Of a stretch of 64,000 nucleotides of DNA, positions 33,056-47,432 are shown one piece after another. This DNA comes from Kordia periserrulae (GTDB lineage: Bacteria > Bacteroidota > Bacteroidia > Flavobacteriales > Flavobacteriaceae). The notes under the pieces are model-generated. The model worked only from the letters and a program-made list of their open reading frames with translations, was not told the origin of the DNA and made no database searches. Position numbers and translations under genes: made by a program. The stretch is taken from positions 124,001-188,000 of the forward strand of contig NZ_QBKT01000007.1 in the NCBI RefSeq assembly GCF_003054265.1, written 5' to 3'. The stretch's first letter is position 1; each line of letters starts with the position of its first letter.

Positions 33056-33613
33056 ATGTCAAATGATGCTTATTTTATTGAAGGTCTGCGTACCGGAGAA
33101 CAAACTGTATTGGAAGAAATATATGACTGCTTTTTTGTAAAGGTGAAGATATTTGTTTTGCAAAATAAAGGAGTGGTGTCTGATGCAGAAGATGTTTTTC
33201 ACAACGCATTGATTCAATTATACATTCGTCTCAAAAATAGAGAGTTAACCATAAAATCTTCTTTCGAAGCGTATCTTTTTACTACCTGCAAAAATCTTTG
33301 GCGACGAGAATTAAATAAAAAACGGGTAACAAATTCCAACGTTATTGAACTTGAAGATACAGAAACCGAAAATGCGTTTGCATTATTAGAACAGGAACAA
33401 TGGGAATTGTACATAAAAAAGTTTCAACTACTCTCTGAAAATTGTAGAAAAGTATTGACACTTTTGTTCAATGGCACTTCGTATGACGATATTGTAAAAA
33501 CATTTTCATACGCATCTAAAGTGGTTGCCCGACAACGTGTTTTTAAATGCAAAACTAAATTAACAAAGCTAATACAGGAAGACCAAACGTTTTCCAAAAT
33601 AAAGAACCTATGA
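33056..33613 (+). CDS. ECF-type RNA polymerase sigma factor upstream of the lanthipeptide locus
   Basis: A 185-residue sigma-70 family protein: region 2 with 'VSDAEDVFHNALIQLYIRL' and 'SFEAYLFTTCKNLWRRELNK', and region 4 with 'LTLLFNGTSYDDIVKTFSY' and a following recognition helix. Region 4 is less typical than in most ECF factors. Its stop codon overlaps the next start (ATGA), so it is coupled to the anti-sigma-like gene. The pair lies directly upstream of lanC on the same strand and may control it, though a 139-base gap with its own promoter motif suggests separate transcription. Confidence 0.88.
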   Translation: MSNDAYFIEGLRTGEQTVLEEIYDCFFVKVKIFVLQNKGVVSDAEDVFHNALIQLYIRLKNRELTIKSSFEAYLFTTCKNLWRRELNKKRVTNSNVIELEDTETENAFALLEQEQWELYIKKFQLLSENCRKVLTLLFNGTSYDDIVKTFSYASKVVARQRVFKCKTKLTKLIQEDQTFSKIKNL

Positions 33614-34419
33614 GTTTTGATGACAGCACTTACGAGAAAATAGGCTTGTATATTGACAATCAAATGAGCGACGCTGAAAGAACTGCCTTTGAAGAAGTAT
33701 TGAAAAACGACACCGAACTCGCTGCATTTGTGGACACATTAACATCACTTGAAAGTGTGTATAATGAAGATACGTGGAATATAAAGAGTAATGCTTCTGC
33801 CGAAGAAATTAAAGCGCTTGCTAATGAATTTCGCGCAGATGATGTTGTGGCATTATCACAAAAAATACGCAGCATCCAACAGCAAAAAAACACAGCATTT
33901 CCTAAAAAAAGGAACAAATCATACTTTTACATCATTTCTTCTGCGGTTGCGATTGCCGCTGTAATGACGTTGTTTTATTTCACTTTTATGCAATCTATTA
34001 CTGCGAGTGAAGCTTTTGAGCAATACCACGATTGGAGCACGCTACCTTCTTTTGTAGAAAAAGGAGTTACGGACGATAATCGCGTGAAAGCACAAGCGTT
34101 GTTCCAAGACGGAAACTATCAAGAAGCATTGCACATTTTTATGGAAACGGCAAAAGATACAACCTACGACCCAAAAGTGCAGTTGTATATCGGAATTTGC
34201 TATTTAGAACTACAAAACTATCACGAAGCTATTCAAACTTTTGACGAATTGCGCAATAGCAACACACTCGACAATCACAAAGCGTATTGGTACACGGCAC
34301 TTGTCTATTTAAAACAAAACAATGCGGAAACAGCGAAGAAAGTTTTGCAAACTTTAGTGCAAGATACTGGCAACTACAATTATGAAAAAGCGAAAGAATT
34401 GCTAAAAAAATTAGAATAA
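33610..34419 (+). CDS. Anti-sigma-like membrane protein with C-terminal TPRs
   Basis: A 269-residue protein. The N-terminal about 100 residues resemble the cytoplasmic part of zinc-less anti-sigma proteins ('IGLYIDNQMSDAERTAFEEVL' and 'ELAAFVDTLTSLE'). A single helix follows (about 102-123), then two or three TPRs on the outside (about 160-265). This topology suits sensing in the periplasm and sequestering the sigma factor in the cytoplasm. It overlaps the sigma gene by 4 bases. Identification as an anti-sigma factor is inferred from topology and context. Confidence 0.75.
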   Translation: MSFDDSTYEKIGLYIDNQMSDAERTAFEEVLKNDTELAAFVDTLTSLESVYNEDTWNIKSNASAEEIKALANEFRADDVVALSQKIRSIQQQKNTAFPKKRNKSYFYIISSAVAIAAVMTLFYFTFMQSITASEAFEQYHDWSTLPSFVEKGVTDDNRVKAQALFQDGNYQEALHIFMETAKDTTYDPKVQLYIGICYLELQNYHEAIQTFDELRNSNTLDNHKAYWYTALVYLKQNNAETAKKVLQTLVQDTGNYNYEKAKELLKKLE

Positions 34420-34488
34420 CACATTCATCTTCCTCTTTTTTATAAATTTCGATAACATATTTCCAATTTTCTGGGTGATTCCTGTTGC

Positions 34489-34508
34489 TTATTCTTGTAA
34501 TCGAATAA
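34489..34508 (+). promoter_or_regulatory. Palindromic operator candidate upstream of lanC
   Basis: TTATTC and GAATAA form an inverted repeat with an 8-base spacer, 9 bases before a TTAATTTG -7-like box (34518-34525) and 50 bases before the lanC start. The same layout recurs upstream of the second TPR-AraC gene at 41251-41270, and a decayed form occurs upstream of the first at about 39041-39060. It may be the binding site of the TPR-AraC regulators. Confidence 0.5.
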
Positions 34509-34558
34509 AAAAAGTCTTTAATTTGAAGTAGACCAAAACTTGAACTATTTGAAAAATT

Positions 34559-35776
34559 ATGAATAAGGAACTATTAGAAAAAAAGTTAAAAGAAATTGAC
34601 CAAATCATTCAATCAAAATACAAAGAAGAAACTCAAATTGGAGTCCTAGCAGGATTAGCAGGAATCTCTTTATTTGAGTTTTACTATTCTAAATATTTGG
34701 ATATTGATGACCACGCTGACATCGGCGTAGAAATGCTAACCGATTGTATCGATAAAATTAATGAAGGCTACAGTTATCCTACATTCTGTACCGGAATTGC
34801 AGGTGCTGGCTGGGTATTGGACCACTTAGAACAAGAAGAGTTCATGGATGCCGATAATGACGATTTATTGCCTGAACTCGACCAATACATTTACACCTTT
34901 ATGGTGACCGATATGAAGAATGGAAACTACGACTTTCTTCACGGCGCTATCGGATATGCCTTTTACTTCTTAAATCGCTACCGAAACACCAAATCGGACG
35001 AATTGAAAGAAAAGTACAAAGGTTTTTTAATTGAATTTTTAGACTTGCTCGAAGGCTTATCAGAAGATGCAGGCGACGGAAAAGTTCGCTGGGAATCTGA
35101 GTTGAGTATTGAAACCAAAGAAAGAGGTTACAATCTTAGCCTATCACACGGAATGTCGAGCATTGTCGGAATCTTAACAAAACTCCACGAACACGACGCT
35201 TTTAAAGAAAAAGCGGAACCAATGCTCAAAGGAGCTGTCAACTATATTCTAAGCTTTAAAAGCGAAGAAGAAAATCCGTTTTCTATCTTCCCAAGTTGGG
35301 TAACCGACAACAAAGAAGACCAAAACTCACAAAGTCGCTTGGCTTGGTGTTATGGTGACTTGGGTGTGGCGATGCGTTTTTGGTATGCTTCCAAAACACT
35401 CAATGACGAAGCACTCGGAAAAACGGCGTTAGAAGTCTTAAAACATGCTGCTAAAAGAACCAAAGTAGAAGACAGTTTGGTGCGCGATGCAGGTGTGTGT
35501 CACGGCTCGTATGGAAATGCACAAATGTTCTACAGAATGTATAAAGAAACGGGCGACCAAGACTTTAAAGATGCGTTTGAATTTTGGATGCAAGACGGAA
35601 TCAACAGAGCAACTTTTGAAGACGGTTATGCAGGTTACATGCAATGGAAAGGTGTTGACAAAAGCTGGGCGCCAGAAGTATCGGTCTTAGAAGGTATTGC
35701 TGGAATCGGATTGACCATTCTCGATTATTTGGCAGACTACAACACCAATTGGGATGAATGTTTAATGATAAGCTAA
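34559..35776 (+). CDS. lanC: LanC-type lanthionine cyclase
   Basis: A 405-residue alpha-toroid cyclase. The zinc ligands are C264 (AWCYGDLG), C314 and H315 (GVCHGSYGNA), and the catalytic His is H197 (LSHGMSS). These match the order and spacing of NisC (212, 284, 330/331). LanC adds Cys thiols to dehydrated Ser/Thr to make lanthionine rings. It is the first gene of lanC-lanB-lanB(C), 6 bases before lanB. A lone LanC-like protein could act as a glutathione-adding enzyme, but the split LanB beside it makes a biosynthetic role much more likely. Confidence 0.93.
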   Translation: MNKELLEKKLKEIDQIIQSKYKEETQIGVLAGLAGISLFEFYYSKYLDIDDHADIGVEMLTDCIDKINEGYSYPTFCTGIAGAGWVLDHLEQEEFMDADNDDLLPELDQYIYTFMVTDMKNGNYDFLHGAIGYAFYFLNRYRNTKSDELKEKYKGFLIEFLDLLEGLSEDAGDGKVRWESELSIETKERGYNLSLSHGMSSIVGILTKLHEHDAFKEKAEPMLKGAVNYILSFKSEEENPFSIFPSWVTDNKEDQNSQSRLAWCYGDLGVAMRFWYASKTLNDEALGKTALEVLKHAAKRTKVEDSLVRDAGVCHGSYGNAQMFYRMYKETGDQDFKDAFEFWMQDGINRATFEDGYAGYMQWKGVDKSWAPEVSVLEGIAGIGLTILDYLADYNTNWDECLMIS

Positions 35777-35782
35777 CAACAG

Positions 35783-38038
35783 ATGAGTAATAATCCATAT
35801 AAGAATTTTTCAAAATACATATTACGAACACCGCTTTTCTCATTCAGTTCCTATCAAGATTTGACCAAAAACCAAGAAATCTCCGATGAAGATTTTAAAA
35901 CGGTTTGTGAAAATCCTGTCGTGAGAGAAGCTTTATTTTTAGCCTCGCCATCATTATTTGAAGAAATGAATCGTTGGCTTGAAGGCGAAAAAGATGATCC
36001 TAAAAAAGAGGAAAAACTAAAATATTCCATCTTAAAATATATCTCTAGAATGTCTTCCCGTTGTACGCCTTTTGGACTCTTTGCAGGATGTTCGGTAGGT
36101 GAATTTGGCGAAGAAACGGACATTCAACTCAAAGGTTCGGCGCAAAACAAGCGTCATACGCGTTTGGACATGAACTATTTGGTAGCGCTTTCGCAAGATT
36201 TGGTACGCAATAAACGAATTAGAGAGCAATTGCGTTTCTATCCAAACTCTAGTATCTACAAGGCTGGACCGCAATTGCGCTATATCGAATACAAATATTT
36301 TAACAGTAGACGTCACCACCATATTGTAGCGGTTGATGATACCGAATATTTGGCAGTTGTGCTAGAAAAAGCGTCACATGGAGCATTATTGTCTGAATTG
36401 GCAGCTTTGTTAGTAGATGATGAAATCACGATTGAAGAATCTACAGAATTTATAGAAGAATTAGTATCGAGTCAGTTACTGATTAGCGAACTAGAACCTT
36501 CGGTTTCTGGACCTGAATTCTTAGAGCAAATCTGCTCTGTATTAGAGCGTTTGGAAGGTGTTGAAGGTATTTTGGCTGCGCTGAAAGAAGCTGATAGCAA
36601 AATCAACAAAATTGACCAATCTATCGGAAACAATCCGCAAGTATACTTAGATTTGAGCGAGTTTTTGCAACAATTGGACACAGACTTTGAATTGAAGTTT
36701 ATGTTTCAAACGGACATGGTATTGCAAAACACCAAAAATACGCTCGATAGTGCTATTGTAGAAGACATTCAAAAAGGATTTGCCTTGCTAAATCGCATGA
36801 CGTTTCCACAAAATACCACCACGCTTACCAAATTTAGAGATGCCTTTCACGAGCGTTTCGAAGAACGCGAAGTACCATTATCTACGGCACTTGACGTGGA
36901 AATCGGAATTGGTTACAAGCAAGATCAAGGTGCTGGAGACGTAAATCCGTTGGTGGATAATATTGTCATTCCAGGCAGACAAGCTAAAAACCCAATGATG
37001 GAAGTTCGTTGGTCTTCATTAAATGGTTACTTTCAAAACAAACTGATTGAAGCCTTTAAAAACGACGATTACGTGATTACAATCGACGATAAAGATTTTG
37101 AGCAATACGACCTAAACTGGAACGATTTGCCAGACACATTATCGTGCATGATTGAAATTTTGGAAGATGCCAACGGGGAACACAAAATCAAATTCAGCGG
37201 CGGTGGCGGATCGAGTGCAGCCAACTTGCTTGGACGTTTTTGTCATGGTGATGAAGAATTATTCGCGTACACACAAGAAATGGTCGATATGGAAGCGGAG
37301 ATGAACAAAGATAAAATCTTAGCAGAAATTGTGCATTTACCAGAATCGAGAGTTGGAAACATTTTAATGCGCCCTGATTTGCGTAAACATGAAATTCCAT
37401 ACTTAGCTAAATCGATTAAAGACGAAGAAGATCAATTGCCAATTGACGATTTAATGGTGTCGGTAAAAGGAATGAGTAAAGTGTTGCTTCGCTCCAAAAA
37501 AAACAACAAAGAAGTCGTGCCACATTTAACAAATGCACATAACTATTCGCATAATTCCTTACCAATCTATCACTTTTTAGCGGATATGCAAACGCAAGGA
37601 ATTCGCAGTGGAGTTGGTTTCGGTTTGGGACCTTTTGCCAATGAATTTGCCTTTTTGCCACGTGTAGAATACAAAAATTTAATTCTGCATGATGCCACTT
37701 GGAACTTAAAGAAAAGTCACATAGAGCCATTATTAAAAAATATGGACGACAACGACAAACTCACGGAAGCCATACAAACCTTGCGCGATAGTTTAAAAAT
37801 TCCGCAATACGTCATGCTTGCCGATGGTGATAATGAATTGCTTGTAAACTTTGGAAATCTTACTTCGGTACGCATGTTATTAGATACCGTAAGTAAACGA
37901 GGTTCATTCAAACTAACCGAGTTCCTGTTTAGCGAACGCGGAGTTGTAAAAGAAGGAAATGAATATTACACCAACCAAGTCGTAATTTCATTTTATAACG
38001 AACAAAAATTAACACAAAGCAAGCAGAGCAATGAGTAA
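35783..38038 (+). CDS. Lantibiotic dehydratase, N-terminal (glutamylation) domain protein
   Basis: The 751-residue product matches the N-terminal part of class I LanB: 'ILRTPLFSFSSY' at the start, 'ISRMSSRCTPFGLFAGCSVGEF' near residue 95, 'RLDMNYLVAL' soon after, and 'HNSLPIYHFLADMQTQG' near residue 600. These enzymes transfer glutamate from Glu-tRNA to Ser/Thr of the precursor. The elimination domain is missing from this polypeptide and is supplied by the next gene, which overlaps it by 8 bases. Split LanB is the arrangement described for pinensins of Chitinophaga. The two parts add up to the length of a whole LanB (about 1050). Confidence 0.93.
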   Translation: MSNNPYKNFSKYILRTPLFSFSSYQDLTKNQEISDEDFKTVCENPVVREALFLASPSLFEEMNRWLEGEKDDPKKEEKLKYSILKYISRMSSRCTPFGLFAGCSVGEFGEETDIQLKGSAQNKRHTRLDMNYLVALSQDLVRNKRIREQLRFYPNSSIYKAGPQLRYIEYKYFNSRRHHHIVAVDDTEYLAVVLEKASHGALLSELAALLVDDEITIEESTEFIEELVSSQLLISELEPSVSGPEFLEQICSVLERLEGVEGILAALKEADSKINKIDQSIGNNPQVYLDLSEFLQQLDTDFELKFMFQTDMVLQNTKNTLDSAIVEDIQKGFALLNRMTFPQNTTTLTKFRDAFHERFEEREVPLSTALDVEIGIGYKQDQGAGDVNPLVDNIVIPGRQAKNPMMEVRWSSLNGYFQNKLIEAFKNDDYVITIDDKDFEQYDLNWNDLPDTLSCMIEILEDANGEHKIKFSGGGGSSAANLLGRFCHGDEELFAYTQEMVDMEAEMNKDKILAEIVHLPESRVGNILMRPDLRKHEIPYLAKSIKDEEDQLPIDDLMVSVKGMSKVLLRSKKNNKEVVPHLTNAHNYSHNSLPIYHFLADMQTQGIRSGVGFGLGPFANEFAFLPRVEYKNLILHDATWNLKKSHIEPLLKNMDDNDKLTEAIQTLRDSLKIPQYVMLADGDNELLVNFGNLTSVRMLLDTVSKRGSFKLTEFLFSERGVVKEGNEYYTNQVVISFYNEQKLTQSKQSNE

Positions 38039-38939
38039 CGAAATACAAAGAAATTTTATCCTAGGAGACAGTTGGCTGTATTATAAAATTTATACAGGCC
38101 CAAAAACCTGTGATGCTGTGTTAACGGAAATTATCAAGCCTGTTGCAGAGCAATTAATCGCACACGGAATTATAGATAAATGGTTTTTTATTCGCTACGC
38201 CGACCCGAAACATCATGTACGCGTGCGTTTTCACTATACAAAACCAGAAAATGTGGGTATGATTATCAACGGATTGTACCCAAAATTTAAAGAATTTATT
38301 GATCAGGATTTGATTTATAAAATTCAAATTGACACCTATCAGCGCGAAATAGAACGCTACGGCGCAAATACGATGGAATTAGCGGAAACGTTATTTTATC
38401 ACGATAGTAAAATGATTGTGGACTTTGTGGACATGATTGAAGGTGACGAAGGCGAAGAACTGCGTTGGTTGTTTTCATTGCGAGCGATGGACTCACATTT
38501 GTCAAGTTACGGCTATACAGACGATGAAAAGCTAGAAATTATGGATCGCTTAAAAACAGGATTCGGAAACGAATTTGGCATGGCGCGACCGTTAAAGAAG
38601 CAATTGGACGACAAATTTAGAGCCGAGCGTAAAAAAATTGAAGAATTTATGGTGTTTACCGCTGAGGAAAACCCCGATTATTCCCCAATTTTAGACGTAC
38701 TACAAGAAAAAGAAGAAGGCATTGCAGAAACGGCAGCTGCTATCATCAAACACAAAGAAGAGGAAACACTCATGATGCCTCTCAACGATTTGATGGGAAG
38801 TTATTTGCACATGTTGATGAATCGCTTGTTCAAGTCTAAAAACCGTATTCATGAAATGGTATGTTACGACTTTTTATATCGTTATTACAAATCCATGATT
38901 GCACGTAAAAAGCACATGAACAAGAATAAACAGAAGTAA
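38031..38939 (+). CDS. LanB C-terminal (elimination) domain, thiopeptide-type bacteriocin protein
   Basis: A 302-residue protein of the SpaB-C/thiopeptide-type bacteriocin biosynthesis family. Near the start it has 'WLYYKIYTGPKTCDAVL', then 'FFIRYADPKHHVRVRFH', the typical R-Y-x-D-P-x2-H-x-R-x-R-F motif, and 'QIDTYQREIERYG'. It removes glutamate from glutamylated Ser/Thr to give dehydroamino acids. The start lies within the lanB reading frame (8-base overlap), so the two halves are coupled and not a frameshifted gene. A terminator follows. Confidence 0.93.
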   Translation: MSNEIQRNFILGDSWLYYKIYTGPKTCDAVLTEIIKPVAEQLIAHGIIDKWFFIRYADPKHHVRVRFHYTKPENVGMIINGLYPKFKEFIDQDLIYKIQIDTYQREIERYGANTMELAETLFYHDSKMIVDFVDMIEGDEGEELRWLFSLRAMDSHLSSYGYTDDEKLEIMDRLKTGFGNEFGMARPLKKQLDDKFRAERKKIEEFMVFTAEENPDYSPILDVLQEKEEGIAETAAAIIKHKEEETLMMPLNDLMGSYLHMLMNRLFKSKNRIHEMVCYDFLYRYYKSMIARKKHMNKNKQK

Positions 38940-38961
38940 ATTATATTACATAAATTATAAG

Positions 38962-38998
38962 GCTGTTTGAAACCATCTATTTTCAAACAGCTTTTTTT
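38962..38998 (+). terminator. Terminator after the lanC-lanB operon
   Basis: GCTGTTTGAAA and TTTCAAACAGC form an 11-bp stem followed by seven T, 22 bases after the stop codon. Confidence 0.9.
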
Positions 38999-39067
38999 AT
39001 GCAAAACCTTTAATACTTCAACTGTTGTTGTTTGTCCCACTTATTTTTTTTCTCGGTAGAAAACCGT

Positions 39068-39075
39068 TATTATTG
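39068..39075 (+). promoter_or_regulatory. Predicted -7 box of the first TPR-AraC gene
   Basis: TATTATTG, one mismatch from TAnnTTTG, 30 bases before the ATG. The region from about 39041 aligns with the corresponding promoter of the second TPR-AraC gene (from 41251), including the TTATTTTTTT tract and CTC-CG core, showing the promoters were duplicated with the genes. Confidence 0.5.
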
Positions 39076-39105
39076 TACTAGTTGCTGGTCATTAATTCCT
39101 CTAGT

Positions 39106-40830
39106 ATGCAAAACCCAAAAACCATTTTCTCGCTAATTTGCACGTTCGTATTCTTGTGTTCGCTATCGCTGAATGCACAAGTCGATTCGTTGCAAGGAAA
39201 ATCGTATGAGGAGTTGATAACGCTATTTGAAGCCACCATGCATACCAATGCTACAAGTGCTGAAATATATGCGCAGGAAGCATATCAAAAAGCTAATATT
39301 TTAAAAGACCAGAAAAAAATAGGAACTGCGTTGTATGCCATAGCAGCTTCCAAGTATTACTTGGGAAAATATGAAGAAACGCTGCAATATACTGATAAGT
39401 CGTTGCAAATTGCAAAAGCAATCGAGAATAACAAATTACTTTTTGACAATTACACTCTGGAAGGAAATGCATATTCTAATTTAAAAGAAGAATTTAAGGC
39501 ATTAGACCAATATCTTCTGGCAAAAAAATATGCTGATTTGTTGCAAGAACCTATCAATATCATCACCGTTTCTGTCAACATAGCTTATTTAAAAAAACTT
39601 CATTACGACCACCAAGAAGCCTTAGAAATACTAAAAGAAAATTTGATTCAAGTCGAAAAAATACCTGAAAATCATCCAAGAAAACAACTTTATGAGCGTA
39701 TTTTATTGATGAATATTGCAGATACGTATTTACGTATTAACAATCCTATAGAAGCAGCTCGTTACAATGACATCGCTATGAATTCTTGTGAAAATGACGA
39801 ACTCAATACGGCTTGTGTTGTTATTTTAATGAATGATGCTATTATTAAGTATCAAAAACAAGAGTATGACAAAGCTATTGAAATCAGTACCGAAGTAAAA
39901 AATAGCTTTCTAACGTTAAAAAGTGAAAATATGACGGTGACACCTTATTTTTACTTAGGAAAGAGTTTTTACAAGAAAAAACAATATAAAAAAGCCATAG
40001 AAAATCTTGAAAAAGCCATACAATTAAGCATTGATAAAGACGTTGCCTTTACCGACCAAAAGGAAGCTCATAAAATATTGTACCAAGCATATACTGAACT
40101 AGGTAATACAGAAAAAGCAAAAGAAAATTTTAATCATTACAGCACGTTGGATGTTAAGAATGACAGTATCAACATGCAACTCAACAATACTATTCATAAA
40201 AAGTATGATATTGTTCCGCTTCAAGATGAGGTAGCACTTTTGGATAGTACCAATCAAAAACAACGAAAGCTTACTAAGTATTTGTACATTTCATTGGCGT
40301 TTTTAGTAGTCTTTTTAGTCGGATTTTTTATCTGGTTTAAACGAAAACAAGGACAAAACAAACTTCGTTTTCAAAAGCTACTAGTCAAAATTGATGCGCT
40401 GGAACAACAGAAAAAAGAAACGAATTCCCAAGAAGAAGTTTCCAAAGAACATACCAATCCTGTCACAGACGAAAATGTACTTCAAATTTTAAAAGGACTG
40501 GAAGCCTTTGAAGAAAAAGAATGGTATTTGCGACAAGATTGTACACTCAGTTACGTTGCCAAAAAATTAAAAACCAATACCTCATATTTGTCAAATGTTA
40601 TCAATACCTATAAAGAAAAACCGTTTCGTTCCTATCTTTCAGAATTGCGAATTAATGCCGCATTGATAAAACTTAAAAATGATGACAAATTGCGTTCGTA
40701 TACTATCAAAGCCATCGCCAATGAATTTGGTTTTAAGCGCTCTGAAACCTTCTCAAGAGTATTTAAAGCACATACAGAAATGTATCCCTCAGATTATATA
40801 AAAAGTCTTGAAAATCAAAAAAATAAGTAG
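39106..40830 (+). CDS. Membrane TPR-AraC regulator, copy 1
   Basis: The ATG at 39106 gives 574 residues; an in-frame TTG at 39082 would start before the signal peptide and inside the leader. Layout: signal peptide (about 1-25, ending SLNAQ), TPRs (about 40-340), one helix (about 391-412), a short coiled coil, and a C-terminal AraC-type double helix-turn-helix (about 470-570) with 'LSYVAKKLKTNTSYLSNVIN' and 'IKAIANEFGFKRSETFSRVFK'. The TPR part should lie outside and the DNA-binding part inside, so it is a one-component transmembrane regulator. It is followed by precursor 1. It is a paralog of the gene at 41316. Confidence 0.88.
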   Translation: MQNPKTIFSLICTFVFLCSLSLNAQVDSLQGKSYEELITLFEATMHTNATSAEIYAQEAYQKANILKDQKKIGTALYAIAASKYYLGKYEETLQYTDKSLQIAKAIENNKLLFDNYTLEGNAYSNLKEEFKALDQYLLAKKYADLLQEPINIITVSVNIAYLKKLHYDHQEALEILKENLIQVEKIPENHPRKQLYERILLMNIADTYLRINNPIEAARYNDIAMNSCENDELNTACVVILMNDAIIKYQKQEYDKAIEISTEVKNSFLTLKSENMTVTPYFYLGKSFYKKKQYKKAIENLEKAIQLSIDKDVAFTDQKEAHKILYQAYTELGNTEKAKENFNHYSTLDVKNDSINMQLNNTIHKKYDIVPLQDEVALLDSTNQKQRKLTKYLYISLAFLVVFLVGFFIWFKRKQGQNKLRFQKLLVKIDALEQQKKETNSQEEVSKEHTNPVTDENVLQILKGLEAFEEKEWYLRQDCTLSYVAKKLKTNTSYLSNVINTYKEKPFRSYLSELRINAALIKLKNDDKLRSYTIKAIANEFGFKRSETFSRVFKAHTEMYPSDYIKSLENQKNK

Positions 40831-40916
40831 TGACATTTTATAAAAACTCACTCATAAAAGCTGTTATTTTCCTAAAAATTTCGGATATTCATACTGTTAA
40901 CTAAACACATAGAATT

Positions 40917-41159
40917 ATGAAATCGTTAAAACTTAAGAAAGTAAAAATTTCTAGAGTCACAAACTTGCACTTGATATTGGGAGGTGTTAACGGCGCTGCT
41001 GGACAAACGACTCAAGAGCCGCAACACCCAGAAACCTATACTTTAGATACAAAATATGATGACTCCTGTATTCCAGGAACCAATGGCGCAACATTGCGAA
41101 CCATTGGAGCGCCTATAGATAACAATGTAACTAGTAACTTGAATAATTCGGGCGATTAA
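40917..41159 (+). CDS. Putative RiPP precursor peptide 1 (GG leader, Cys-poor)
   Basis: An 80-residue peptide starting MKSLKLKKVKISR with a GG site at residues 22-23 (LILGG). The leader has the pattern L4-x-L6-x-K8-x2-I11-S12-x-V14. The core of 57 residues has about ten Thr, four Ser (counting all hydroxyl residues outside the leader) and a single Cys near its middle (DDSC), so at most one lanthionine could form. It sits 86 bases after regulator 1 and is followed by its own terminator. It may be a signal peptide or a dehydrated, mostly linear product rather than a polycyclic lantibiotic. Confidence 0.75.
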   Translation: MKSLKLKKVKISRVTNLHLILGGVNGAAGQTTQEPQHPETYTLDTKYDDSCIPGTNGATLRTIGAPIDNNVTSNLNNSGD

Positions 41160-41185
41160 CTACCTAACATATCGTTGATACAGAT

Positions 41186-41217
41186 GCTATCTCAAAAATT
41201 GGGATAGCTTTTTTTAT
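41186..41217 (+). terminator. Terminator after precursor 1
   Basis: GCTATC and GATAGC arms (41186-41208), extended by one more C-G pair, followed by a run of T. Confidence 0.8.
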
Positions 41218-41250
41218 GCTTTTTCCCAAAAACATGTTCTTTCGTGTTGC

Positions 41251-41270
41251 TTATTTTTTTCTCCGAATAA
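41251..41270 (+). promoter_or_regulatory. Palindromic operator candidate upstream of the second TPR-AraC gene
   Basis: TTATTT and GAATAA with an 8-base spacer, preceded by GTTGC as in the lanC promoter. It lies 7 bases before a TATACTTG -7 box (41278-41285) that precedes the ATG by 30 bases. Confidence 0.5.
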
Positions 41271-41315
41271 AAACTGCTATACTTGTATAGACCGATTCAA
41301 CCAAATATTTTGAGA

Positions 41316-43025
41316 ATGCATCTTAAAAAACTTTCTTCTTTACAACTATATCTTCTACCTATTATCCTTCTTTTCTGTTCGCTTTCGCTGAATGGACAAA
41401 CGGATTCTCTAAAGGGAAAATCGTATAAAGAGTTGCTGTCATTATACGATGCCACTTTTTACAAAAACACTTCCCAAGCAGAAATCTATGCAATCGCAGC
41501 TTACAAACTCGCAAAAAAAGAGGATAACAAAGCGCAAATGGCATGGGCAAAATATAACGTAGCACACGTAAAGTATGCATTGTTATTGTATGATGAATCT
41601 ATAAAAGATTTGGAGGAAGTCATACATTTAGCAACAGAATTAAATGACAACCTATTGCTCTATAAAAGTTACAGCTTAAAAGGTAATAATTACTTTGATA
41701 TAAATAGAAACAATGAAAGTTTTGATAATTATCTAAATGCAAAAAAATATGCAAAGCTTACAAAAAATCCGCTCAACTTATCTATAATAAATATTAACAT
41801 ATCCTTTATAAAAAAAATTCATAAAGATTATGAAGAAGCTATTAATATTTTACTTGAAAGTTTAGATATCCTTCAAAAAGTTGATAACAGTGAAAAAAGA
41901 AAAGCAGAAAACGAGTGTACTGTTTTAATGCAACTAGCAGATACTTATCTTAGAATTAACCAAACTAAAAAAGCACAACAGTACAACGATTTAGCTTTAA
42001 ATTTAGCTACAAAAGAAGAGTTTCATGATGCTTACAATTGGGCTTTAATGAGCAAAAGTATTATTGAATATCAAAACAAAAATTTTGCACAAAGTATTGA
42101 TATATGTAGAGAAGTAGAAAAGTATTACAAAAGCAAAAACGAACTTTCCAATTTAGCAACTCCTTATTTTTACATTGGAAAAAGTTTATATGAATTGGGG
42201 AAAAATACTCAGGCTACAGAATATCTTGAAAAAACAATTGCTATTTGTGACGAATTCAATTTGGATTTTCAAGAAAAAAAGGAAGTATATAGATATTTAC
42301 GATTGTCTCATTCTGCATTAGGAAACTTCAAAAAAGCCAATCAATATGCCAACAAATTTTACGAGTTAGACAGAAGAATTGATAGCTTAGACATTTCCCT
42401 AAATAACAGACTTCATAAGGAACATGACATTATTCCTTTGAAAGAAGAGATACAATCTTTAGGCGAAAATAACAAATATTTATACAGCGTTTCTGCTTTT
42501 CTTTTAATACTGTTGATTGGTTTCTATCTTTGGTATAGACAAAAACAAAAACGAAATAAAAAGCGCTTTCAAGAATTGTTGGTTACTATTGAAAAGCTGG
42601 AACGTCCAAAAGAAAAAATCATTTCTGAAACAGAAGTCAAAGAAGCTACTAACACTATTACTGACGAAAATGTGTTGCAAATTTTACAAGACTTGGAAAC
42701 ATTTGAAGAAAAAAAATTATACCTACGACAAGATTGTACTCTGGGTAACGTAGCTAAAAAATTAAAAACAAATACCACCTATTTGTCCAATGTCATCAAC
42801 ACCTATAAAGAAAAATCATTCAAATCGTATCTCTCCGAATTACGTATCAATGATGCGTTGATACAACTTAAAAATGATTCTAAATTACGTTCGTACACTA
42901 TTAAGGCCATTGCAGAAGAGTTTGGTTTTAAACGTGCAGAAACCTTTTCAAAAGCCTTTAAAGCACAAACCAATATGCTACCATCATATTACATTAAAAG
43001 TCTTGAAAAACAGAGAGTTACATAA
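41316..43025 (+). CDS. Membrane TPR-AraC regulator, copy 2
   Basis: A 569-residue paralog of the regulator at 39106 with the same layout: signal peptide ending SLNGQ, TPRs, helix at about 387-408, and C-terminal AraC helix-turn-helix. The DNA-binding region is nearly identical ('LGNVAKKLKTNTTYLSNVIN', 'IKAIAEEFGFKRAETFSKAF'), while the TPR part has diverged, suggesting the same DNA target but different periplasmic inputs. The ATG at 41316 is chosen; an upstream TTG at 41283 lies inside the -7 box. It is followed by precursor 2 with 89 bases between. Confidence 0.88.
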   Translation: MHLKKLSSLQLYLLPIILLFCSLSLNGQTDSLKGKSYKELLSLYDATFYKNTSQAEIYAIAAYKLAKKEDNKAQMAWAKYNVAHVKYALLLYDESIKDLEEVIHLATELNDNLLLYKSYSLKGNNYFDINRNNESFDNYLNAKKYAKLTKNPLNLSIININISFIKKIHKDYEEAINILLESLDILQKVDNSEKRKAENECTVLMQLADTYLRINQTKKAQQYNDLALNLATKEEFHDAYNWALMSKSIIEYQNKNFAQSIDICREVEKYYKSKNELSNLATPYFYIGKSLYELGKNTQATEYLEKTIAICDEFNLDFQEKKEVYRYLRLSHSALGNFKKANQYANKFYELDRRIDSLDISLNNRLHKEHDIIPLKEEIQSLGENNKYLYSVSAFLLILLIGFYLWYRQKQKRNKKRFQELLVTIEKLERPKEKIISETEVKEATNTITDENVLQILQDLETFEEKKLYLRQDCTLGNVAKKLKTNTTYLSNVINTYKEKSFKSYLSELRINDALIQLKNDSKLRSYTIKAIAEEFGFKRAETFSKAFKAQTNMLPSYYIKSLEKQRVT

Positions 43026-43114
43026 TTGACGCTTTATAAAACATCAATAGTATCTTTTAGATATTTATCTTTTTTTTTAGACTTTAGCAGTGTATAACTA
43101 AAACAAAGATTATT

Positions 43115-43354
43115 ATGAAATCACTAAAACTGAGAAAAGTAAAAATTTCAAGAATAGGAAATCCCCATATCCTATTTGGAGGAGCTACAACAGAAACACA
43201 AGAACAAGCTTGTAATCCTGCATACACAAATGATTTATATTGTAAAACCAGAGACCCTAAAGACACAGATTGCGATACCGTAACAAATACGACTGGTAGT
43301 CGCACTACTAATCCAGATCAAAATACAGATACTTGTGATGGTCTTGGAGGTTAG
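43115..43354 (+). CDS. Putative RiPP precursor peptide 2 (GG leader)
   Basis: A 79-residue peptide beginning MKSLKLRKVKISRIGN with the GG site at residues 22-23 (LFGG). The leader is nearly the same as in precursor 1 and keeps L-x-L-x-K-x2-I-S-x-I. The 56-residue core has four Cys (QAC, LYC, TDC, DTC) and many Thr and few Ser, enough for up to four thioether rings. It ends in GLGG. It pairs with regulator 2 as precursor 1 pairs with regulator 1. Confidence 0.78.
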   Translation: MKSLKLRKVKISRIGNPHILFGGATTETQEQACNPAYTNDLYCKTRDPKDTDCDTVTNTTGSRTTNPDQNTDTCDGLGG

Positions 43355-43377
43355 AATAAATTTACAAACCGTTTTTT

Positions 43378-43410
43378 AAAGTCTTTAGCAATTTGTTAAA
43401 GGCTTTTTTT
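43378..43410 (+). terminator. Terminator after precursor 2
   Basis: Imperfect hairpin (AAAGTCTTTA with TTAAAGGCTTT) ending in eight T, 24 bases after the stop codon. Confidence 0.7.
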
Positions 43411-43524
43411 ATGAATTAACAATTCTAAAACACTATTTCTCTTATTAGTTCGTTATCTTTATAAGTGTAATTTCCCAAATTCCTAATACATGTATTTTTT
43501 TATAAACTATAAAAAAATTAAATC

Positions 43525-43800
43525 ATGAAAAAACAAAAATTAGGAGTACACAAACTAGCGTTAACAAAGTCGAGAATTGCAGAGTTAAATACTGCCAATC
43601 TAAAAGGTGGTAATGGAACTGTTTCAACAAATCCAGACTGTATCGCAACAGGTCCTTATGACGGATGTGATGTAACTGCCAATTGTAACACCGCTGATCA
43701 TTGCGGAAATACCAACAACGGTTGTCAAACCAATGGTTGTACTGATGGTTGTGGTGCTACACAAACAAGACAATTTATTTCCTGCTACGAAGCATGTTAA
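43525..43800 (+). CDS. Putative class I lanthipeptide precursor 3 (Cys-rich)
   Basis: A 91-residue peptide. The leader starts MKKQKLGVHKLALTKSRIAE, showing L11-x-L13-x-K15-x2-I18-A19-x-L21, the form usual for Bacteroidota class I lanthipeptides, and has a GG site at 28-29. The core of 62 residues has nine Cys, with Asp/Gly/Asn-Cys spacing of 4-10 residues, and more than a dozen Ser/Thr, almost all Thr. This is the best candidate for multi-ring modification by LanB/LanC. A TATCTTTA -7-like box lies about 64 bases upstream. It converges on the exporter operon. Confidence 0.85.
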   Translation: MKKQKLGVHKLALTKSRIAELNTANLKGGNGTVSTNPDCIATGPYDGCDVTANCNTADHCGNTNNGCQTNGCTDGCGATQTRQFISCYEAC

Positions 43801-43807
43801 TACATAC

Positions 43808-43839
43808 AAAAGCCTCAACACAATTTTGTTGAGGCTTTT
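43808..43839. terminator. Bidirectional terminator
   Basis: AAAAGCCTCAACA and TGTTGAGGCTTTT form a 13-bp stem with a 6-base loop between precursor 3 (plus) and the HlyD gene (minus). Confidence 0.9.
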
Positions 43840-43867
43840 TCTATATAATCATGAAAAAATAAGATGT

Positions 43868-45223
43868 TTATTTTCTGCTAAACACTTCTCGCAACTGATA
43901 AAAAATACGTTGCATTACGGTAAGTTCTTCTACGACAATCTCCGCTGTTCCTTCCATTTCTTGTTTGAAATTGATATCCTTTTCAAACGAACTCGTTAAC
44001 GAATCTACTCTTAAGTACGCTACGTACATTGGCGGACCACCTTGTGTGCTCAACTGTGGCACACCTGAAATATTGATGATTTCTCCCGATAAACTTCCCC
44101 ATTCTTGATACGGATAGCTGTCTAATTTGATAATAACGCGTTGTCCAACTTCAATTTTTCCTGAATTTGCTACCGGAAACGAAACTCTCCCAATAATACC
44201 TTCAATCTCATCTGGAATCACCGTAAATAAATCTTGTCCAACGTTTACATTTTGGTATTTCGACCAAATATCAAAAACGGTGACTTCTCCTTTTATGGGC
44301 GATTTGAGCACGAATTGCTGTTCCCACTGTAAAATTTGATTCTCCAAATCTTGTTTGGCTTGTTCCAAATTTTGATCGGTAGAAATTTCTGAGCTTTTAT
44401 CACCTACAGATGCTTGACGTAAAGTTCCTTCGAGTGTAATAATAGAATTTTGATCACTTTCTATGCTAGACAACGTTCCTTCGTACGCGCGTTTTGCAGC
44501 GTAATAAATATTTTCTTGATCTTTAAACTCTCGCTCAGAAACACTTCTGCTAGCATACAAACGCTTGAATTTTTCATACCTCTTTTTGGTATTGGCAACT
44601 TCTAATTTTTGATATTCGAGCTGATTTTTACTGTTACGCAATCGGTTACGAACTCTGTTCAATTGCAAACGAATATTGGCTGCTTGATTTTTCTCGTTAT
44701 TAAAAATTGTATAGTTTAAATACGACAAATATTGCGCTCTAAACTGATTGTATGCAGGCTGAATAGAACCTAGTTTTAACTTTGTTGGGAAACGAAAATT
44801 AAGGGAGTCAAAATCGTTATCACTTGGAATAAAATCTTTTAGCTTTTTTTTGAGCAATTGTACATCGTCAAAATTTGCGGTGTTTTCAATCACGGCTAAC
44901 ACTTCGTCTGCTGCTACTTTTTGTCCAGCTTCCACAAAAATACTGGTCAATTTTCCAGAAGCTTTTGCCGTTAAATGTGCTGGTGGATTTTCAGATGTAA
45001 TCGTCACGCGTGCAGGAATGATGTCGTTATAACTCAACAGCGCCGATCCTACCAAAAAGAGAATGATAATAATAAACACTACGGAAATTCCCCATTGAAT
45101 TACCCAATTCGGAGCCTGGCCCAAAATTTCCTTTACCTGATCGGAACGTTCGTCAAGATCATTGATTTTCTTGCGTCTCTCTTCCTTTTTTTCTTCTGGT
45201 TTTTTGTCTTTCTTCTTAGCCAT
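43868..45223 (-). CDS. HlyD-family periplasmic adaptor of the peptide exporter
   Basis: A 451-residue membrane fusion protein: a Lys/Glu-rich cytoplasmic start, one helix (about 45-66), a lipoyl-type half-domain ('GKLTSIFVEAGQKVAADEVLAVIE'), long coiled-coil arms (about 130-290), then the second lipoyl half and beta-barrel ('LKSPIKGEVTVFDIW', 'VGQDLFTVIP'). It links the inner-membrane ABC exporter with an outer-membrane channel. It lies one base after the C39-ABC gene on the minus strand. No TolC-like gene is in the window. Confidence 0.9.
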   Translation of the reverse strand: MAKKKDKKPEEKKEERRKKINDLDERSDQVKEILGQAPNWVIQWGISVVFIIIILFLVGSALLSYNDIIPARVTITSENPPAHLTAKASGKLTSIFVEAGQKVAADEVLAVIENTANFDDVQLLKKKLKDFIPSDNDFDSLNFRFPTKLKLGSIQPAYNQFRAQYLSYLNYTIFNNEKNQAANIRLQLNRVRNRLRNSKNQLEYQKLEVANTKKRYEKFKRLYASRSVSEREFKDQENIYYAAKRAYEGTLSSIESDQNSIITLEGTLRQASVGDKSSEISTDQNLEQAKQDLENQILQWEQQFVLKSPIKGEVTVFDIWSKYQNVNVGQDLFTVIPDEIEGIIGRVSFPVANSGKIEVGQRVIIKLDSYPYQEWGSLSGEIINISGVPQLSTQGGPPMYVAYLRVDSLTSSFEKDINFKQEMEGTAEIVVEELTVMQRIFYQLREVFSRK

Positions 45224-45224
45224 A

Positions 45225-47432
45225 TTAGTTTCCTAGCTCTAATTGATTTTTTACTAATGTATAATATGCTCCGCGTTTTGCGGTAAGTTCTTCGTGGTTT
45301 CCTAATTCGATAATTTTTCCTTTATCCAACACGATAATTTGGTCTGCATTTTTTACCGTACTCAAACGATGCGCTACCACAACAACGGTTTTTCCTTTGT
45401 AGAATTCTTGTAAATTCTCCATAATGACCTTTTCATTGTTCGCATCTAGGGCACTGGTTGCCTCATCAAAGAAAATATATTTTGGATCTTTGTACACAGA
45501 GCGTGCAATTAAAATTCGCTGTTTCTGTCCACCCGAAACATTCACACCACTCGAACCAATTTTAGTATTATAACCTGATGGCAATTCTTCGATAAAATCT
45601 TCAATATTTGCCACTTTTACGGCGTGAATCAAACGTTGCTTGTCAATAATTCCTTCCGAATCAGATTCTGTAATATTTCTTGCAATGGTATCTCCAAACA
45701 AGAAACCATCTTGCATTACCGAACCACACGCTCTACGCCAAGTTTTGGTACTAATATCACCTAGTTTGTGCGGTCCAATATGAAGAGAACCTTCGTTAAA
45801 TTCGTAAAATTTGAGTAATAATTTAATCAAAGTCGTTTTTCCACTTCCGCTGGCTCCTACAATTGCGGTTACTTTCCCTTCTGGAATGTCAACCGTGATA
45901 TCGTCTAAGATTAACGGTGAACTTTTTCCGCCGTAACGGAAACTTGCATTGGTAATTTTAATAGTTTTATCTTCTGGTAATTCTTTAATGTTTTCTTCAA
46001 AACGATCTTCCTCATCGTCTTTATTGTGAATTTCAGACAAACGCTCCAAACTGATTTTCGCATCTTGTCCCGACTGAATAAATGTAATGAAGTTGTTGAT
46101 TGGTAAGTTTAATTGCCCAATGATATACTGTACCGACAGCATCATACCTAAGGTAAACAACGGATCGTCAATTACAGACGTTGCCGCGATATAGGTTATG
46201 ATGATATTTTTCAATTCGTTGATAAATCGTCCACCTGTATTTTGTGTTTGCGAAAGCGCCAATCCTTTGATGGAAATTTTAAATAAGCGCACCTGAATGG
46301 CTTCCCATTCCCAACGTCTTCTTCGTTCAGAACCGTTCAGTTTAATTTCTTGCATTCCCGAAATCAGCTGATACAAACTACTTTGGTTGTCGGATGATTG
46401 ATCGAATCGTTTGTAATCGAGTTCCGCACGTTTCTTCATAAATAAAAGTGTCCAACCAATGTACAGGGCTGATCCCACAAAGAAAACGACAAAGATTTGC
46501 ATGTTATAATACGCCAAAACTCCACCAAAAATGAACATATTAAACGCAGAAAACAACGTATTTAAAGTTGTAGACGACAAGAAACTCTGAATTCGGTTGT
46601 GGTCGTAAATACGCTGAATAATATCTCCCGTATTTTTAGAATCGAAAAAGGCAATCGGCAAACGCATCAACTTGATTAAGAAATCAGAAATCAGGTTAAT
46701 GTTGATACGACTCGTCATGTGAAGTAGAATCCAACCTCGAATCAATTCGACCGTAGTTTGCGAAATAAACAGGGTTAATTGCGCAATTAAGATGAGAAAG
46801 ACAAAGTTTTTATTCTGATAATTAATACCATAATCCACAACCGATTGCGTTAAAAACGGAAATATTAATTGCAGCAAACTCCCGACCAGCAATCCTAAAA
46901 TTAATTGAAGAATGTATTTTTTATACGGTTTAAAATACCAAAACAGGAACTTGAAACCATATTCTTTCTTTTCTTCCTTCTCCATTTCATAAAACTCTGG
47001 AGTCGGTTCTAACAACAACAAATATCCTTCTGCTGATTCAGAATCGGCAGTAGAACCAATCCAACCTTTTATAAAATCTTCTTTTGAATATTTTACCAAA
47101 CCATGCGCTGGATCGGCAACATATACGGTATTTCTTTTTATTTTGTAGACGACTACGAAATGACGCTGACGCCAGTGTGCAATACACGGATACGGCACAT
47201 CATCTACTAACGTTTTGTAATCAACGCTTACTGCCAACGTATGTAGTCCGATTTCTTCCGCAGCTTCCGCAATTCCTCCCAAAGAAACTCCTTCTCTGGT
47301 GATGTTGGCTTTCTTTCGTAGAAAGTCAATTGCATAAGCACGTCCAAAATGCTTTGCTACCATACGCAAACACGTAGGTCCACAATCCATTTGATCTAAC
47401 TGTCGGTAAAAAGGAAACTCTCTCTTTATCAT
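45225..47432 (-). CDS. C39-peptidase ABC exporter (bacteriocin type)
   Basis: A 735-residue ABC exporter. The N-terminal C39 domain is complete: Q11 (oxyanion), C17 in MDCGPTCL, H91 in QRHFVVVY and D107 in VADPAHG. It is followed by six helices (about 165-440) and an ATPase domain with Walker A GASGSGKTT, signature NVSGGQKQR and Walker B YIFFDEATSALD. Such proteins cut the leader after GG and export the core peptide. All three nearby precursors have a GG site. It is in an operon with hlyD and convergent with the precursors. Confidence 0.95.
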   Translation of the reverse strand: MIKREFPFYRQLDQMDCGPTCLRMVAKHFGRAYAIDFLRKKANITREGVSLGGIAEAAEEIGLHTLAVSVDYKTLVDDVPYPCIAHWRQRHFVVVYKIKRNTVYVADPAHGLVKYSKEDFIKGWIGSTADSESAEGYLLLLEPTPEFYEMEKEEKKEYGFKFLFWYFKPYKKYILQLILGLLVGSLLQLIFPFLTQSVVDYGINYQNKNFVFLILIAQLTLFISQTTVELIRGWILLHMTSRININLISDFLIKLMRLPIAFFDSKNTGDIIQRIYDHNRIQSFLSSTTLNTLFSAFNMFIFGGVLAYYNMQIFVVFFVGSALYIGWTLLFMKKRAELDYKRFDQSSDNQSSLYQLISGMQEIKLNGSERRRRWEWEAIQVRLFKISIKGLALSQTQNTGGRFINELKNIIITYIAATSVIDDPLFTLGMMLSVQYIIGQLNLPINNFITFIQSGQDAKISLERLSEIHNKDDEEDRFEENIKELPEDKTIKITNASFRYGGKSSPLILDDITVDIPEGKVTAIVGASGSGKTTLIKLLLKFYEFNEGSLHIGPHKLGDISTKTWRRACGSVMQDGFLFGDTIARNITESDSEGIIDKQRLIHAVKVANIEDFIEELPSGYNTKIGSSGVNVSGGQKQRILIARSVYKDPKYIFFDEATSALDANNEKVIMENLQEFYKGKTVVVVAHRLSTVKNADQIIVLDKGKIIELGNHEELTAKRGAYYTLVKNQLELGN

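Follow-up and report, generated by a model that had tools for sequence, protein, structure and literature searches.

A class I lanthipeptide locus of Kordia with a split LanB and recurring pairs of TPR-AraC regulator and precursor genes

RRNPP receptors of Firmicutes (Rap-Phr, NprR-NprX, Rgg-SHP) combine a TPR superhelix with an adjoining small peptide gene, occur as many paralogous pairs per genome, and are by definition cytoplasmic, with no transmembrane segment. In prochlorosin systems, one promiscuous LanM serves many scattered precursors. Closer in enzymology are the pinensin-type clusters of Bacteroidetes; as given in the available part of a 2020 survey (Walker et al., PMC7268733), "a number of" class I clusters have a split LanB, and the leaders of Bacteroidetes class I precursors end in GG and carry the motif LxLxKx5L. 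Class I lanthipeptides of Chryseobacterium and Runella have been made in E. coli, with seven dehydrations and three rings, and the available text of that paper (PMC9993889) contains neither "regulator" nor "AraC".

Positions 34559-47432 of the window (the analysed 64,000-nt stretch of DNA of the marine bacterium Kordia periserrulae) are a class I lanthipeptide locus with the standard enzyme set, its lanthionine product being predicted from the genes. Like the pinensin-type clusters in the accessible portion of the survey, it has LanC, a C39 protease, leaders that end in GG, and one protein each for glutamylation and elimination (PMC7268733); unlike them, it adds regulator-precursor cassettes that are hypervariable within the genus and have many unlinked copies. 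It is a Bacteroidota LanABC system, as are those of Chryseobacterium and Runella, which differ in having one precursor each in the portion of the paper available (PMC9993889). The regulator-precursor pairs resemble RRNPP systems in their predicted TPR superhelix (with a fold similar to NprR and Rap), adjoining peptide gene and many paralogs, but the Kordia regulators are membrane-bound, with a predicted periplasmic sensor, an AraC HTH, and a lanthipeptide-type GG-leader precursor. With prochlorosins the system shares one synthetase, a conserved leader, hypervariable cores, and unlinked precursors, but its enzymes are class I and every precursor is paired with a regulator of its own.

The new part is this regulator-precursor pair, which the available part of the survey does not mention (PMC7268733). 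The class I machinery with split LanB described in the earlier note holds, but the split does not distinguish this locus and was rejected as a novelty, since the same source already reports it for several clusters, together with GG-leader class I precursors of Bacteroidetes. A search of full-text literature, a scope covering a minority of subscription papers, found no comparable system of peptide pheromones in Bacteroidota. Our preferred reading, to which we give an even chance, is that the regulators are peptide receptors in the membrane and that each of them controls one lanthipeptide-type precursor; a single LanB/LanC set would most likely serve all of these precursors.

Enzymes, exporter and precursors

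The lanC gene (34559-35776, plus strand) encodes a lanthionine cyclase matching PF05147 (E 4e-46) and LanC-like proteins in the PDB. Direct reading of residues confirmed the complete set of zinc ligands (H197, C264, C314, and H315), which sit on LSHG, WCYG, and CHG motifs common to the solved LanC-like protein 8byk. LanB is divided between lanB1 (35783-38038, plus), the glutamylation part (PF04738, E 3e-150; NisB 4wd9, E 5e-23), and lanB2 (38031-38939, plus), the elimination part (PF14028, E 4e-74), which aligns solely with the C-terminal part of the full-length LanBs 9g04 and 5ehk. Both Pfam matches are far above cut-off, and the two genes, whose overlap the earlier note had described, share 8 nt and have one domain each. 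The locus has the genes that mark class I (both LanB domains, a separate LanC with zinc ligands, and adjoining precursors with a leader and a Ser/Thr/Cys core), and glutamylation and elimination lie on two proteins as in the pinensin type.

On the minus strand, a C39 peptidase-ABC exporter (45225-47432; PF03412, 3e-37, plus ABC domains) and an HlyD-type adaptor (43868-45223; PF13437, 3e-13; TIGR01843, 5e-25, under its cut-off) fill 43868-47432, in agreement with the exporter and HlyD proposed before. The exporter carries C17, H91, and D107 by direct reading, which we take to be the catalytic residues, and shows 93.5-98.5% identity among 11 Kordia loci. By their motifs, the enzymes and the exporter are all intact. 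LanB1 would glutamylate Ser/Thr and LanB2 eliminate, LanC would close the rings, and the C39-ABC/HlyD exporter would cleave at GG and export the peptide.

Three GG-leader peptides were confirmed on the plus strand: A1 (40917-41159; 57-aa core, one Cys), A2 (43115-43354; 56-aa core, four Cys), and A3 (43525-43800; Cys-rich). None reaches a family cut-off in NCBIfam or Pfam; A1 and A2 have chance-level Pfam matches or none, and A3 is near NF038153, the NCBIfam class I lanthipeptide leader (19.5 bits vs a cut-off of 22). The earlier suggestion that a single set of enzymes serves several unlike precursors is borne out. Each of the 11 Kordia genomes examined has a single lanB2 match. The locus holds two kinds of precursor, the Cys-rich A3 and the A1/A2 regulator-precursor cassette. 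Among the best 80 of at least 557 loci, relatives of A3 adjoin these enzymes in two further genera, where the regulators are absent.

The locus is syntenic in all 11 Kordia genomes examined and is therefore not a chance arrangement. Loss of precursors from otherwise conserved lanBC loci had been named in the earlier note as evidence against a lanthipeptide cluster; A1/A2-type precursors occur in 11/11 Kordia loci and A3-type precursors in 10/11, so this comparison does not refute the lanthipeptide reading. Two syntenic neighbours, both named by reading and on the plus strand, are in place in 11/11 loci: an ECF-type sigma factor gene (33056-33613; mean identity 85%), with a putative link to the cluster, and a gene for a putative anti-sigma factor with TPR-like repeats (33610-34419; 65%).

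Regulator-precursor pairs in the locus and across Kordia genomes

Regulators R1 (ORF 39082-40830, ATG 39106) and R2 (ORF 41283-43025, ATG 41316), both on the plus strand, have TPR repeats, an AraC-type HTH and one internal hydrophobic segment each, in keeping with the paired transmembrane TPR-AraC regulators reported earlier. R1 is laid out as an N-terminal hydrophobic helix, a predicted periplasmic TPR superhelix, one TM, and the AraC HTH (AlphaFold2 model, mean pLDDT 85.4). In fold searches, the TPR part of the predicted structure resembled LGN as well as RapI and NprR, which are pheromone receptors, although TPR superhelices are widespread and a like fold does not mean a like ligand. A single internal hydrophobic segment at 60-80% of length is found in 119 of the 120 regulators of the selected Kordia pairs, which sets them outside the RRNPP definition of no transmembrane segment. 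The earlier note overlooked that each regulator directly precedes its own precursor, that regulator and precursor vary in concert, and that further copies of the pair are numerous elsewhere in Kordia genomes, away from lanBC.

A promoter-like block before R1 (39040-39077, plus) is one copy of a direct repeat, D7, whose second copy (41250-41287) precedes R2, and the block is seen in the 15 aligned upstream regions of locus regulators. Imperfect palindromes with a TTTATAAA core, putative operators, lie in the R1-A1 gap (40829-40852, plus) and the R2-A2 gap (43026-43047, plus); the core is in 15/15 locus gaps. Outside the locus, 46 of 106 gaps hold palindromes at p 0.05 (peptide 60-140 nt away; a few non-Kordia gaps included). 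The lanC promoter region (34436-34520, plus) is conserved and has a TTTATAAATTTCG block, a possible regulator half-site, identical in 11/11 Kordia loci; a search for an operator shared by this promoter and the locus palindromes gave the TTTATAAA core as the sole common element. Each regulator may be a one-component membrane receptor whose periplasmic TPR superhelix would bind exported peptide; a long helix would carry the signal through the single TM, and the AraC HTH would then bind the intergenic palindrome and activate the precursor (autoinduction).

Pairs of this kind are found genome-wide in Kordia, and A1 and A2 as ordinary cluster precursors only was rejected on that ground. With leader model 2, a leader peptide lies within 300 nt after the regulator for 14/17, 42/44, and 12/13 regulators in three Kordia genomes, or 12/15, 41/43, and 11/12, respectively, without the locus pairs (2, 1, and 1). 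The total is 152/172 vs 3/146 controls, the 172 including locus pairs and the model being partly trained on peptides then counted. Leader model 1, built from locus precursors only and applied to 124 regulators that include some non-Kordia ones, gave 91/124 vs 0/146 controls at 2 bits and 94/124 vs 3/146 at 0 bits. Two of the control matches resemble genuine GG precursors.

The 120 selected pairs (105 outside the locus and 15 of the locus) comprise Kordia regulators with a candidate peptide up to 140 nt away (three exceptions), with leader/core cuts set by a pattern. Their cores contain Cys in 119/120 cases and are acidic (mean net charge -4.3). Many unlinked precursors with a common leader are also the mark of prochlorosin-type systems, and the set might be a combinatorial library of weapons or metabolites made by one synthetase, with the regulators merely timing expression by ordinary cues. 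Common leaders, hypervariable Cys-bearing cores, and a single LanB elimination domain per genome agree with this, but one dedicated sensor per precursor exceeds what timing needs and the acidic cores are unlike those of most membrane-active lantibiotics; we consider it quite improbable. Under the receptor reading, the scattered precursors would most likely be modified in trans by the locus enzymes. A single synthetase would then supply between a dozen and some forty private peptide channels in Kordia, comparable to the Rap-Phr or Rgg-SHP families except that the peptides are modified and the receptors sit in the membrane.

More tentatively, and with rather less than even confidence, Kordia may conduct multi-channel quorum sensing: a dozen to about forty membrane TPR-AraC receptors in a genome, a separate lanthionine pheromone and operator for each of them, one shared LanC/split-LanB machine for maturation and export, and sensors and pheromones exchanged between species like a self-recognition code. 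If the receptors do read the peptides, Flavobacteria possess a signalling language of many channels that would be the Gram-negative equivalent of Rap-Phr, based on modified peptides. The pairing also gives a search rule, in that inspecting downstream of each TPR-AraC gene leads to lanthipeptide-type precursors with no lan gene nearby. How one class I dehydratase could handle dozens of unlike cores also becomes a testable question.

Divergence of sensors and cores

Mean identity among Kordia loci is 88-96% for lanC, lanB1, lanB2, and the ABC exporter, 84.7% for the HTH and 44.6% for the TPR sensor, and the precursor cores are hypervariable (core score 17% of self). Across 15 locus pairs, TPR similarity tracks core similarity (Mantel r 0.57, p 1e-4; r 0.48 with HTH fixed) and does not track LanB1 (r 0.07, p 0.22); across the 120 Kordia pairs, r is 0.68 (partial 0.28). 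The HTH-core correlation is nearly as strong as the TPR-core correlation (0.49 and 0.61; partial 0.36 and 0.24), and therefore linkage accounts for part of the Mantel result. Six pairs examined for positive selection (NG86) gave no dN/dS above 1, the highest defined core ratios being about 0.93 (G008/G006) and 0.65 (G002a/G003).

Discordant pairs also occur. The TPR part of R2 is sharply unlike that of the closest species (57% identity, vs 97% for the HTH and 87% for the A2 core), with a dS of 2.46 vs 0.39-0.57 in HTH, core, and lanB1. In this species pair the sensor differs at two separate loci while HTH and precursor are kept, and besides R2/A2 four more pairings with unlike sensors and like cores are found among the 120 pairs. 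G002a has a G003-like sensor with a G000a-like HTH and core, and the reverse discordance (TPR 70-87%, core <35%) is present as well. These pairs led us to reject the idea that sensor and core are always inherited together, and sensor swaps beside an unchanged precursor are evidence against strict sensor-peptide pairing. The swaps in the closest species pair and in G002a favour receptors that sense other peptides (those of neighbours, other precursors, prey, or a host), the adjacent precursor being a response and not the signal. Against this, the TPR-core correlation persists within three bins above 70% HTH identity (r 0.56-0.68, from non-independent pairwise values), and we judge sensing of other peptides possible but rather unlikely. 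We infer that each sensor binds the peptide of its neighbour.

Candidate modifying enzymes and distribution beyond Kordia

In 394 other genomes of the order, TPR-AraC regulators occur in 50/57 with PF14028 vs 32/337 without (Fisher p 1e-33, phylogeny uncorrected), so that 7 of the 57 LanB-bearing genomes have no regulator and 32 genomes have a regulator without LanB. These 395-genome tables score three regulator candidates per genome and take two draws as identical genomes since their handles agree. By genus, in a nearer sample, regulators are found in 7/8 vs 5/81.

This co-occurrence bears on whether LanBC serves A1-A3 only, with the scattered peptides left unmodified or modified by other enzymes. 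The window's genome has a PF13575 (LanM) gene and a HopA1 gene adjoining a LanC-like gene (possibly class V), the two families occurring in 4/11 and 10/11 Kordia genomes, respectively; LanB is therefore not the sole candidate enzyme, and its recognition of scattered leaders is putative. Yet the leader model built from the locus detects most scattered leaders, the distribution of the regulator family in the order follows that of the LanB elimination domain, and PF13575 has no match in 7/11 Kordia genomes, including G007 (13 regulators) and G008 (38 regulators). A prochlorosin-type class II LanM thus does not fit as the shared enzyme, lanB2 by contrast being in 11/11, and we think a LanBC restricted to A1-A3 unlikely.

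LanB loci were compared as the best 80 of at least 557, among which the Chitinophaga loci L128 and L131 have a full-length LanB and no regulator match. Among the loci listed, those of genera other than Kordia have 13 such regulators, 12 of which are followed by a leader peptide; the figure is 10 of 14 if a narrower pattern is used and L103, a weak partial regulator match under threshold, is kept. Counting against the preferred reading, only 4 of 15 regulators from non-Kordia whole genomes have such a peptide: 3/5 of those lying about 6 kb or less from lanB2 and 1/10 of the others.

Cluster content and precedent

The lanthipeptide cluster at window 34559-47432 of Kordia periserrulae is of a known type with unusual regulation. 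All parts named in the earlier note were found where it had placed them, including LanC with its zinc ligands (H197, C264, C314 and H315), a split LanB with separate glutamylation (PF04738, lanB1) and elimination (PF14028, lanB2) proteins whose genes share 8 nt, and paired TPR-TM-AraC regulators of ~570-580 aa each (R1 and R2). One GG-leader precursor lies directly behind each regulator (A1 and A2, respectively), and A2 is followed by the Cys-rich A3 and then by HlyD and the C39-ABC exporter, on the opposite strand. The whole genome holds one match to PF14028, five to C39 and four LanC-like matches, one of these inside a LanM-type protein. Window 29587-32496, upstream of the cluster, encodes on the opposite strand a 969-aa secreted-looking protein with what, by eye, resembles a C-terminal sorting domain.

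Passages of earlier papers already describe split LanB as well as class I leaders ending in GG from Bacteroidetes (PMC7268733) and Bacteroidota LanABC sets that function in E. coli with Chryseobacterium tRNA-Glu and GluRS (PMC9993889). A survey of Bacteroidales RiPPs proposes that some clusters act in signalling and points out TPR genes in two (PMC10352776). TPR proteins whose role is unclear are among the associated genes listed in a survey of graspetides (PMC8939145). Full-text literature searches found no publication on pairs of a TPR-AraC regulator and a leader peptide. For the genus itself, parts of the Kordia antarctica genome paper report a lanthipeptide cluster by antiSMASH (PMC7477175), and a Flavobacteriaceae survey describes, in part, genus-specific RiPP clusters, the Kordia one being proteusin-like (PMC10734526).

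A conserved locus with a hypervariable middle

The lanB elimination gene is present in 11/11 Kordia genomes vs 12/108 other relatives, and synteny from sigma factor to AAA gene is kept in 11/11 Kordia loci. The locus is a core with a hypervariable middle: mean pairwise identity is 88.5% for lanC, 90.7% for lanB1, 92.0% for lanB2, 96.0% for ABC and 81.5% for hlyD, and 54.4% and 41.0% for the regulators and A1/A2-type precursors, respectively. Within the regulators, mean identity is 44.6% for the TPR part vs 84.7% for the HTH; precursor leaders average 68.4%, and cores reach 17% of self score. Each locus has one or two regulator-precursor cassettes (15 in total).

A3-type genes number 16 in 10/11 Kordia genomes; among the 11 loci, none was found in that of G003. 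In Leptobacterium flavescens (L063) and Flavobacteriaceae bacterium R38 (L064) the order is lanC-lanB1-lanB2-A3-like-hlyD-ABC, with no regulator or A1/A2 match in the 20 kb examined at each locus. A3 thus looks older than the cassettes, which, judged by this gene order, seem to have been inserted in the Kordia lineage.

A sigma factor and TPR-bearing anti-sigma pair (window 33056-34419, named by reading) is syntenic with the cluster in 11/11 loci, and its anti-sigma gene is likewise fast-evolving (65% identity). In three Kordia loci a further short GG-leader peptide, 44-46 aa long, lies in the gap from lanB2 to the first regulator (L034:10868-11008, L036:9193-9330 and L042:8998-9132); the 143-nt lanB2-R1 gap of the window lacks it.

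Regulator-precursor pairs, sensors and putative operators

With R1 as query, many regulators were found in each Kordia genome. By family profile, and counting the locus, full-length regulators number 17 in the window's genome, and another three genomes contain 44, 38 and 13 regulators (E <= 1e-80). Because each Kordia genome has one lanB2 match, the non-locus regulators stand apart from lanB2. Most regulators have a small leader peptide downstream, as a rule at 65-135 nt. A leader model built from locus precursors only placed a peptide (>=2 bits) after 91/124 non-locus regulators vs 0/146 control genes; a second model did so for 152/172 regulators vs 3/146 controls, two of the three control matches resembling genuine precursors. 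In three single genomes, the second model gave 14/17, 42/44 and 12/13, or 12/15, 41/43 and 11/12 with locus pairs removed. The pairs form a large, fast-evolving family. Unlike the hypervariable locus cassettes, one scattered pair family keeps the core end C-x4-C-Y/F in all 11 Kordia genomes (L166, L261, L264, L269, L271, L273, L275, L277, L279, L280 and L282).

Among 120 Kordia pairs (105 scattered, 15 locus), cores are acidic (net charge averaging -4.3), contain Cys in 119 cases, and average 16% Thr and 7.5% Cys; judged by composition, the peptides look like LANTHIPEPTIDE substrates.

Sensor similarity correlates with core similarity, which points to a sensor that reads its neighbouring peptide; LanB1 is clearly tracked by neither sensor (r 0.07) nor core (r 0.13). 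Compared with its closest relative, the window is mostly 85-98% identical in DNA, falling to 61-74% at ~41.5-42.7 kb, the R2 sensor, where dS is 2.46 (HTH 0.57, core 0.44, lanB1 0.39). Window 41500-42700 is read as a replacement of the R2 sensor domain only. That the HTH of R2 and A2 itself are barely altered beside this diverged sensor counts against reading of the adjacent peptide. The pattern repeats at another pair of these two genomes (TPR 42, HTH 99, core 69), so sensors have at least sometimes been swapped independently. A pheromone function is the most likely single mechanism, though unproven.

An imperfect palindrome of 22 bp is usually found <=30 nt past the regulator stop; its core is TTYATAAA-like, and its arms vary among regulator families. 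Against dinucleotide-preserving shuffles (p floor 0.01), 46 of 106 gaps reached p 0.05, 27 of them at the floor, and 60 fell short; the TTTATAAA core occurs in 15/15 regulator-precursor gaps of the locus. The palindrome would fit an AraC dimer site 5' of the precursor promoter. In the lanC promoter (window 34436-34520), the block TTTATAAATTTCG is invariant across 11/11 loci, and the putative half-site there is closer to the palindrome arms of other regulator families than to those that follow R1 and R2.

Association with LanB and other candidate enzymes

Among 394 other genomes of the order, the regulator family occurs in 50/57 with PF14028 vs 32/337 without; in a nearer sample the figures are 10/12 vs 5/96 by genome and 7/8 vs 5/81 by genus. 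A leader peptide follows 12/13 regulators in LanB loci of other genera (best 80 of at least 557 loci) and only 4/15 in non-Kordia whole genomes, where 3/5 regulators ~6 kb or less from lanB2 have one vs 1/10 elsewhere. PF13575 (LanM) matches in 4/11 Kordia genomes and HopA1-domain proteins in 10/11 count against a simple LanB story.

In the window's genome, a HopA1-domain protein adjoins a LanC-like gene (L001, C10:28867-30661), a pairing that resembles class V lanthipeptide synthetases. The same genome has a LanM-type gene with a 975-aa frame bearing PF13575 plus LanC (L002, C2:128329-130845) and a second PF13575 gene (C3:264513-265649).
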